From Candidatus Gastranaerophilales bacterium (GTDB lineage Bacteria; Cyanobacteriota; Vampirovibrionia; Gastranaerophilales; Gastranaerophilaceae): a stretch of DNA of 64,000 nucleotides. The notes beneath the pieces are model-generated. The model was not told where the DNA came from and searched no databases. It saw only the letters and a list, made by a program, of their open reading frames with translations. The DNA is taken from positions 1 through 64,000 of the forward strand of contig CALVAM010000006.1 of NCBI GenBank assembly GCA_944325545.1, in the 5' to 3' direction. Both the position numbers and the translations under genes were made by a program. Positions 36,513 through 38,463 of this stretch are shown here, one piece after another; the first letter of the stretch is position 1; each line of letters begins with the position of its first letter.

Positions 36513-37277
36513 ATGATAAAGTTAGCTAAAACTGTAAAATTACCTTTTTCGATATGTAAAGGAACTTATTCACAAAGATTGGAAAAAGCCAAAGCTCTTA
36601 ATGAACAACTTTTTAGCAAAATTAATCAAGAATTTGTGGAAAAAGATATTTCTCCTGATGTTTTTATCAGGAATATAAAAAAAGTAACAAATAATAAAAT
36701 AAAATTCCTCATTGATGATTCTACAAACGCAAATTATAAAGGTTGTACTTTGTTAGGATTTAACCCAAAGAATTGTTCTCTTGCTGACAGATTTAAAATA
36801 GCAATTCCATTAAATATTTTTGATAAAAAAGTATCAATTTATGATGCAGATATTTTTATGCATGAATTTTTTCATTTTTTTTGTGAAATAACAAATCCTA
36901 AACATCTGCAAAGAATGATAAAGAATTATGAAAAGAATTTATCAATATCAACAGAGCCTTTTTACAGAAATTATTTTTATTCTAAAAATAATTTGGATTT
37001 AGATTTTTTAGAAAAAACTTTACTTCCGAACTTTTTAAAAAAATTTAATATATATGATCAAATAGATTTTTTACAAAACAGCAGATACAGACTTATAGAA
37101 GAATTAAATGCTTTTCGGGAAGCTAATAAATATTATGATAAAATTCAAGAAAATCATTTAGATTTGATTAGTGAAAAATTGAGTACAGAATCTGGAGAGT
37201 CTTTTCATTTTGAGGAAAAAATTCCTATTATAGAAAAAGCTTTGAAAAAAATTTTAAAAAAAGCTAGAAAAGTCTAG
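36513..37277 (+). CDS. HExxH-motif protein, putative zinc metalloprotease
   Basis: The 254-residue protein contains H117-E-F-F-H121 within D-I-F-M-H-E-F-F-H-F-F, the zinc-binding motif of metalloproteases, and a later acidic block E-E-L-N-A-F-R-E-A near 208 that could give the third ligand. The rest is Lys-rich and helical. The ATG at 36513 has no ribosome binding site, while an in-frame stretch with a good site lies upstream behind a TAG, so the gene may be 5'-damaged. No signal peptide is visible in the present frame. The substrate is unknown. Confidence 0.6.
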   Translation: MIKLAKTVKLPFSICKGTYSQRLEKAKALNEQLFSKINQEFVEKDISPDVFIRNIKKVTNNKIKFLIDDSTNANYKGCTLLGFNPKNCSLADRFKIAIPLNIFDKKVSIYDADIFMHEFFHFFCEITNPKHLQRMIKNYEKNLSISTEPFYRNYFYSKNNLDLDFLEKTLLPNFLKKFNIYDQIDFLQNSRYRLIEELNAFREANKYYDKIQENHLDLISEKLSTESGESFHFEEKIPIIEKALKKILKKARKV

Positions 37278-37421: not shown

Positions 37422-37664
37422 CTATCCAGCTAATGAACTATGGAATGTTCTTGAAATTACATCATCTTGTTGTTCTTTTGTTAATTTAATGAAGTTTACT
37501 GCATATCCTGATACTCTTACTGTTAATTGTGGATATTTTTCAGGATGTGCTTGTGCGTCTAATAATGTGTCACGATTAAACACGTTTACATTTAAGTGAT
37601 GTCCGCCTTTTTCTACGTATCCGTCTAATAAATTGATTAAATTTTCTTCTTGTTGTGTTGTCAT
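37422..37664 (-). CDS. grcA: stand-alone glycyl-radical domain (GrcA/YfiD-like)
   Basis: The 80-residue protein is only the C-terminal glycyl-radical segment of pyruvate formate-lyase: G-G-H-H-L-N-V-N-V near 20-28, H-P-E-K-Y-P-Q-L-T at 40-48 and R-V-S-G-Y-A-V with the radical Gly53, ending T-F-H-S-S-L-A-G. E. coli GrcA has about 127 residues, so this copy lacks the N-terminal extension. AAGGAG lies 8 bases before the ATG, so it is a real short gene. By analogy it can replace an oxygen-damaged radical domain of PFL. The full PFL is not in the window. It is divergent from a Crp/Fnr regulator. Confidence 0.9.
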
Positions 37665-37716: not shown

Positions 37717-37758
37717 ATTATAAACTATGTTTAACAACATTTCCGTTGTTTTTACAAC
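37717..37758 (-). promoter_or_regulatory. grcA promoter with Fnr-geometry palindrome
   Basis: On the minus strand TATAAT (37717-37722) is the grcA -10, with no good -35. GTTGT-N4-ACAAC (37745-37758) is centred about 41.5 bases before the predicted start site, the class II activator position. A second inverted repeat, AACAAC-N6-GTTGTT (37733-37750), overlaps it. The 5-4-5 layout equals that of Fnr boxes although the half-site differs. Confidence 0.6.
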
Positions 37759-37791
37759 AAAAAGATATTTTTAAAAATAAAGGCTCTAAAT

Positions 37792-38463
37792 ATGGAAAGA
37801 CTTGAAAAATATTATAATCAGATTAAAAATTCGCCGGTGTTTTTTGGTATGAATGATGAAGAATTAAGAGGACTGTTGGAATGTTTTAATGCGAGGGTTC
37901 GGAAGTATGAAAAAGAAGAAATGATTATAAGACAGGGGGATATGATTTCCAATATATATTTAATATTAGATGGAGCTGTTAATATTGAAAAAGATTCATA
38001 TTGGGGAAGAAGAATTATAATTTCCAGATTAGAAAAAAATGACAATCTTGCCTTATCCTTTGTCGGGTCTAAAGATGTTGAATCAAGCGTTGATGCTATC
38101 ACAGTCGAAGATACTTTAGTTTTAATTTTAGGATATGAAAAATGTACATCAATGTGCCAAAACGCTTGCGTCAGACACAAAGTTTTAATCAATAATCTTT
38201 TTCAAATACTTAGTAAAGAAAATATTGAACTTATCCAAAAAATTGAAAATGTTTCACAAAAAACTATTAGAGACAAGTTAATGACTTATTTTTCTAACGA
38301 AGCACAAAAAAATCACTCTAATACTTTTACAATTAACTTTAATCGACAAGATTTAGCAGACTATTTAAATGTAGATAGAAGTGCAATGAGTTTTGAACTT
38401 TCAAAACTTCAAAAAGAAGGATATATAAAATACGATAAAAACCATTTTGAACTTTTATCATAA
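37792..38463 (+). CDS. Crp/Fnr-family transcriptional regulator
   Basis: The N-terminal cyclic-nucleotide-binding-like beta-barrel (residues 15-115) is followed by a dimerisation helix and a winged helix-turn-helix with R-Q-D-L-A-D-Y-L-N-V-D-R-S-A-M-S. Cys118, Cys122 and Cys126 form a C-x3-C-x3-C set at the start of the dimer helix, which may hold a metal or sense redox. The usual N-terminal Fnr Cys cluster is absent. The recognition helix has M-S-F where related regulators usually have a Ser-Arg. It is divergent from grcA and probably controls it. Confidence 0.88.
   Translation: MERLEKYYNQIKNSPVFFGMNDEELRGLLECFNARVRKYEKEEMIIRQGDMISNIYLILDGAVNIEKDSYWGRRIIISRLEKNDNLALSFVGSKDVESSVDAITVEDTLVLILGYEKCTSMCQNACVRHKVLINNLFQILSKENIELIQKIENVSQKTIRDKLMTYFSNEAQKNHSNTFTINFNRQDLADYLNVDRSAMSFELSKLQKEGYIKYDKNHFELLS

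Follow-up and report, generated by a model that had tools for sequence, protein, structure and literature searches.

Does the palindrome between the glycyl radical cofactor gene grcA and the divergent gene of a Crp/Fnr-superfamily regulator connect the two, and if so, which genes does the regulator serve and in response to what? This arrangement lies in a stretch of 64,000 nucleotides (the window), which its named relatives place in a Candidatus Gastranaerophilales genome of 1.82 Mb that is 99.6% complete. The Gastranaerophilales are non-photosynthetic Cyanobacteriota, uncultured relatives of the cyanobacteria that live in the gut. Pyruvate formate-lyase, which is killed by oxygen, is a central enzyme of gut fermenters; in the textbook case, both this enzyme and its repair part are regulated by FNR. 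The features of the locus are the following:

37422–37664, minus strand: grcA, stand-alone glycyl radical cofactor of the GrcA3 family, 80 amino acids
37717–37722, minus strand: predicted -10 element of the grcA promoter, TATAAT, 22 nt from the box
37734–37738: conserved third half-site, reading GTTGT along the grcA strand (-28 to -24), also inside ATGTT-N4-AACAT
37745–37758: predicted operator box GTTGT-N4-ACAAC of the grcA promoter, centre at -41.5, assigned by exact match and conservation
37792–38463, plus strand: Crp/Fnr-superfamily regulator of the HcpR-like branch, 223 amino acids, with PF00027 and PF13545 over cut-off

The window also contains, at 36513–37277 on the plus strand, a 254-residue ORF with an HEFFH (HExxH) motif as in zinc peptidases, for which Pfam and NCBIfam searches returned no match.

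The palindrome, GTTGTTTTTACAAC, is present exactly at 37745–37758, with the 5-4-5 geometry and the non-Fnr half-site that the initial annotation had described; it does not match the FNR box, TTGAT-N4-ATCAA. GTTGT-TTTT-ACAAC is the only exact match within the window. With a first-order Markov model based on the window, 0.04 exact boxes are expected in 64 kb, and the gap of 127 bp between grcA and the regulator gene is expected to contain 8e-5. Read along the grcA strand, the region consists of GTTGTAAAAACAAC-N22-TATAAT (37717–37758). Because of this spacing, the centre of the box falls at -41.5 relative to the predicted grcA transcription start, and because the -35 position reads roughly CGGAAA, the promoter has no -35 element; both features had been proposed by the same annotation and are borne out. 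Thus, the grcA promoter has what a class II Crp/Fnr promoter is expected to have, namely a site near -41.5 and a -10 element, with no -35 element, and the box is most likely a Crp/Fnr-type site of class II, with a half-site that differs from that of FNR, predicted to be read by the neighboring regulator, while a repressor could also occupy such a promoter. Two further elements are conserved between the box and the -10 element, at 37723–37744: the third half-site, which is nearly invariant among 26 distinct sequences from the genus, and a palindrome that overlaps it, ATGTT-N4-AACAT (centre about -23.5).

The genus set comprised 65 genomes; an ortholog of the regulator (68–100% identical) is present in 36 of them and absent from the other 29; G008 and G017 have, in place of the ortholog, a 38–39% identical HcpR beside hcp, and G079 has a partial match. 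Stand-alone grcA is preceded by box-N22-TATAMT, the spacer of which contains GTTGT, in 35 of the 36 regulator-positive genomes and in none of the 29 regulator-negative ones, a distribution that is close to a single evolutionary event, since the regulator-positive genomes form one group on the PflB tree (single change, support 98/97), so that Fisher values for the co-occurrence are inflated. The reversed-pattern control has no matches across the 65 genomes. Spacing between the box and the -10 element is identical in all 35 matches, while the distance from the -10 element to the start codon varies. The exception is G033, where neither grcA nor pflB is preceded by a box although an ortholog is present (68% identical). 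In 15 of the 35 genomes, the regulator gene is located more than 1.5 kb from grcA; the box stays with grcA in these genomes and is absent upstream of the displaced regulator. We therefore assign the box to the grcA promoter rather than to the regulator's own, and reject autoregulation as a general feature. The same arrangement is seen in a second Gastranaerophilales set (L216–L230), the regulators of which are 60–67% identical, and in deeper members of the genus the box, with the same spacing, is also found at rubrerythrin and nifU-nifS promoters.

The initial annotation had proposed searching the genome for the box near fermentation genes, and had held that a lack of further sites near anaerobic genes would speak against its proposal. 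This search yielded a second exact, well-spaced site at the pyruvate formate-lyase operon, and the proposal therefore stands on this point. The second box lies 104 bp upstream of the pflB ATG, with its centre at -42.5, and heads pflB-grcA, with pflA just downstream. In the window's own genome, the exact box combined with a well-spaced TATANT -10 element is found at exactly two promoters, those of grcA and pflB, and the pflB box and -10 pattern recurs in 24 genomes, every one of them regulator-positive. The own genome contains five exact boxes where about one is expected, yet exact palindrome counts do not separate regulator-positive from regulator-negative genomes and no clear enrichment is evident, because the core alone is too short; only the box together with a spaced -10 element is informative. 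Two of the remaining exact sites (C5:40594 and C19:17842), which from their sequence context are probably coding or gene-end matches, were set aside, as were the sites with up to one mismatch (79, mildly above the 66 of the reversed control), among which those with class II placement revealed no convincing additional target in the own genome. In five regulator-negative loci (L090, L089, L091, L093 and L092), a different conserved stretch, CAATTTATATAAGTTAATA, is found upstream of pflB, and different control may therefore act there.

Both targets concern one enzyme, which is encoded in two pieces. PflB (L073, 4203–6281, contig C3 of the own genome) covers positions 5–663 of the 744 positions of the pyruvate formate-lyase profile TIGR01255 and ends before the glycyl-radical domain, and GrcA covers positions 665–744. 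GrcA also scores 163 bits against a cut-off of 158 bits with the curated model NF038360 (NCBIfam GrcA3), and has the glycyl-radical loop RVSGYA (RVSGYAVNF in the sequence); a literature search for GrcA3 returned no match. Only two proteins of the own genome match the glycyl-radical domain, and each is a stand-alone GrcA: that of the window and that of the operon (L073, 6394–6630). As PflB is truncated and these are the only matches, pyruvate formate-lyase is, by its genes, split in this organism, and GrcA looks like an obligatory subunit, not only a spare part. Since PflB ends before the glycyl-radical domain, the regulator furthermore appears to control both halves of the split enzyme. Of 32 regulator-positive genomes examined, 27 have a second, stand-alone grcA, which no regulator-negative genome has.

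There is a partial precedent in E. coli, where YfiD (GrcA) rescues oxygen-cleaved pyruvate formate-lyase and an artificially truncated enzyme core binds YfiD poorly but has full activity once activated (PMC8683613). In both organisms, a core without a glycyl-radical domain receives a fresh one from GrcA. However, the E. coli core is made at full length and needs GrcA only after damage (PMC8683613), whereas the pflB gene of the own genome stops before the domain and is accompanied by two grcA copies, one in its operon and one stand-alone. Regulation shows a similar mixture of likeness and difference: in E. coli, both pflB and yfiD are activated by FNR bound at -40.5 (PMC3688515), so that the two targets, the class II position and the 5-4-5 palindrome are shared; but the FNR half-site is TTGAT, and the regulator described here is without the N-terminal cysteine set and belongs to a different branch of the family.

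To which branch it belongs is indicated by 31 more distant homologs (35–44% identical) from other lineages, nearly all Clostridia. An exact box is present within 350 bp upstream in 9 of these 31, versus 0.006 expected, and is absent from the remainder of the 31 loci (233 kb). The half-site is thus not private to the window's regulator, which we therefore assign to an HcpR-like branch. Most of the box-bearing clostridial promoters also have the 22-nt spacing to the -10 element, and the genes behind them encode FrdX-Hcp, Hcp, the glycyl-radical enzyme NrdD and a DUF1858 protein. In addition, one regulator gene in Lachnospiraceae is transcribed divergently from a gene for full-length pyruvate formate-lyase, where the box has one mismatch and keeps this spacing. 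Immediately downstream of the box, the sequence of the grcA promoters is similar to that of the clostridial promoters (AGACATGTTG versus AGACATATTG); the comparison suggests that the grcA promoter may have descended from an hcp-type promoter.

The homologs also indicate which residues the half-site depends on. The recognition helix of the regulator is D195-R-S-A-M-S-F-E202, and the initial annotation had offered its M-S-F as a possible explanation of the unusual half-site. This explanation was not upheld: homologs with Ala or Asn at position 201 have the GTTGT box as well, and F201 was rejected as its cause. Instead, the box tracks D195-R196-S197, as homologs with D-R-S at these positions have GTTGT in 9 of 14 cases and those with E-R-S, E-R-A or D-R-A in none of 17, and three E-R-S homologs have GTTGG-N4-CCAAC. 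R196 and S197 correspond to CRP positions 180 and 181, which Rodionov and colleagues (2005) tied to the outer G and the inner A of the motif, respectively, and they reported Ser at 181 together with a changed motif in C. difficile and C. thermocellum (PMC1274295). Here, as in that rule, the outer G is kept with Arg at 180 and the inner A is changed; a change of specificity in this HcpR-like branch was, accordingly, already anticipated in that work. Support that is independent of kinship within the genus comes from the reappearance of the box in Clostridia and from the way it follows the helix residues. At L242 (1705–3894, minus strand), a clostridial homolog with the M-S-F helix has an exact box before the anaerobic ribonucleotide reductase gene (NrdD). 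A Gastranaerophilales HcpR with Arg at 201 (L256) faces hcp with GTTGC-N4-GCAAC, and residue 201 may therefore tune the innermost base.

As a protein, the regulator scores above the Pfam cut-offs for cNMP_binding (46.4 versus 27.5 bits) and HTH_Crp_2 (34.1 versus 27 bits) and is the only protein of the own genome to do so for either domain. The FNR model, in contrast, scores 24.8 bits against a cut-off of 228 bits, its profile aligning from position 30, at residue 16 of the regulator. The absence of the Fnr N-terminal cysteine set, claimed by the initial annotation, is confirmed: where FNR has C20, C23 and C29 (with C122), no cysteine precedes C31. The annotated C-x3-C-x3-C at 118–126 was likewise found, although the annotation had missed C31, with which the regulator has exactly four cysteines (C31, C118, C122 and C126), all invariant in the aligned Gastranaerophilales orthologs. 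C31, C122, C126 and H129 are invariant in a 51-sequence alignment, in which conservation at 122–126 and in the recognition helix was partly selected for, because these two regions served as alternative search patterns in retrieving the homologs, while C31 lies outside both. C118 is invariant in the aligned grcA-linked Gastranaerophilales orthologs and missing from the other sequences of that alignment. In an AF2 model (mean pLDDT 86), C31 is located at the end of a helix and C118–C126 in a loop before the dimer helix, the region of lowest confidence; the best full-length fold match of the model is P. gingivalis HcpR (9day_A, TM 0.77).

Several features are read directly from the genomes: the box with its constant distance to the -10 element, its confinement to genomes that carry the regulator, the pflB operon as a second target, the division of the enzyme into two pieces, the lack of any further Crp/Fnr protein, and the occurrence of the box beside homologous regulators in Clostridia. 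From these we infer how binding, activation, the direction of the response and the sensing chemistry may be arranged. A dimer of the regulator would bind GTTGT-N4-ACAAC, centred at -41.5 before stand-alone grcA or at -42.5 before the pflB-grcA operon, and would recruit RNA polymerase to promoters in which a -10 element is present and a -35 element absent, i.e., class II activation. The regulator would thereby set the supply of both halves of the split enzyme, the PflB core and the GrcA domain, and a fresh glycyl-radical subunit would be made upon loss of the oxygen-labile one. The occurrence of the box at rubrerythrin and nifU-nifS promoters, together with the link to hcp, points to oxygen, redox or nitrosative stress as the most likely signal, which would be read by C31, C118, C122 and C126 (with H129). 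We regard the operator, the targets and class II activation by an HcpR-like Crp/Fnr protein, taken jointly, as quite probable, whereas for the signal, presumably oxygen, redox or NO, and its direction alone our confidence is slightly less than even.

The main competitor keeps the same operator and targets but follows the logic of FNR: an oxygen-labile cofactor would make the regulator active in full anoxia, and oxygen would switch off pyruvate formate-lyase and GrcA, making it an anaerobic activator rather than part of a damage response. E. coli FNR acts in this way at focA-pflB and yfiD from its -40.5 sites (PMC3688515), the four invariant cysteines are as many as FNR uses, and strictly anaerobic enzymes (pyruvate formate-lyase, NrdD) are among the targets; nevertheless, we consider this arrangement unlikely, as the FNR N-terminal cysteines are missing and the targets of related regulators also include protective or repair functions (rubrerythrin, NifU-NifS, Hcp/FrdX). 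That the palindrome is instead the operator of an unrelated repressor or nucleoid protein, its adjacency to the regulator being coincidental, appears very improbable. The overlapping ATGTT-N4-AACAT palindrome and third half-site would fit such a binder, as would the single origin of the box-regulator association inside the genus, but the same box and spacing occur beside clostridial homologs, where they track recognition-helix residues, and the own genome has no other Crp/Fnr protein.

A further possibility is that the protein is an HcpR in the strict sense, sensing nitric oxide through heme, with pyruvate formate-lyase and GrcA as targets in place of hcp. NO damages radical and Fe-S enzymes, which would make such targets sensible. 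The likeness to the HcpR/HcpR2 branch (C. difficile, T. maritima, P. gingivalis; PMC1274295, PMC12915319, PMC12750200) is considerable: the closest homologs outside the clade (35–44% identical) are linked to hcp, with divergent hcp or frdX in many Clostridia and in G008, G017 and G038, and share the box and 22-nt spacing; Arg at CRP position 180 goes with the outer G, Ser is found at 181 as in C. difficile and C. thermocellum, and the P. gingivalis protein is the best full-length fold match. Yet the neighbor here is grcA, the targets are grcA and the split pflB, the best hcp match in the own genome scores 226.6 bits versus a cut-off of 360.8 bits, and hcp is present in only 3 of the 65 genomes of the genus. 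The usual HcpR2 box is GTAAC-N4-GTTAC rather than GTTGT-N4-ACAAC, C118 is an additional invariant cysteine, and the axial heme ligand of P. gingivalis HcpR, Met68, aligns with K67, so that sensing cannot simply be copied from that protein. We therefore consider a true HcpR improbable, more so than the FNR-like arrangement.

If the preferred reading, an HcpR-like activator of both enzyme halves, is correct, control of FNR's two genes appears to have passed, in gut Cyanobacteriota, to a different Crp/Fnr branch that has a different box and lacks FNR's set of cysteines. The role of HcpR-like regulators would then reach beyond NO defence to include glycyl-radical enzymes (pyruvate formate-lyase, NrdD), in Clostridia as well, and this reading yields a concrete candidate operator, a two-promoter core regulon and four candidate residues. 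More speculatively, and with somewhat less confidence than we place in the signal, the protein may represent a new class of Crp/Fnr sensor, with a metal or iron-sulfur redox site that is built from C31, C118, C122 and C126 (with H129) and bears no relation to that of FNR. Its lineage would have moved from defence against NO (hcp) to the protection of glycyl-radical enzymes, and in gut cyanobacteria it would rule an obligately two-piece pyruvate formate-lyase.

Two minor observations accompany these results. Both halves of the operon-encoded enzyme have cysteine-rich tails (PflB ends in CGCCEGTCQ and the operon GrcA in NNCGC), which are absent from the stand-alone GrcA of the window. Furthermore, an exact box without class II spacing precedes an EmrB/DHA2-family efflux gene in two distant members of the genus (L075, own genome, C14:56173; L165, G081, C51:113484), and in the own genome this box is followed by a second palindrome, GTTGC-N4-GCAAC.
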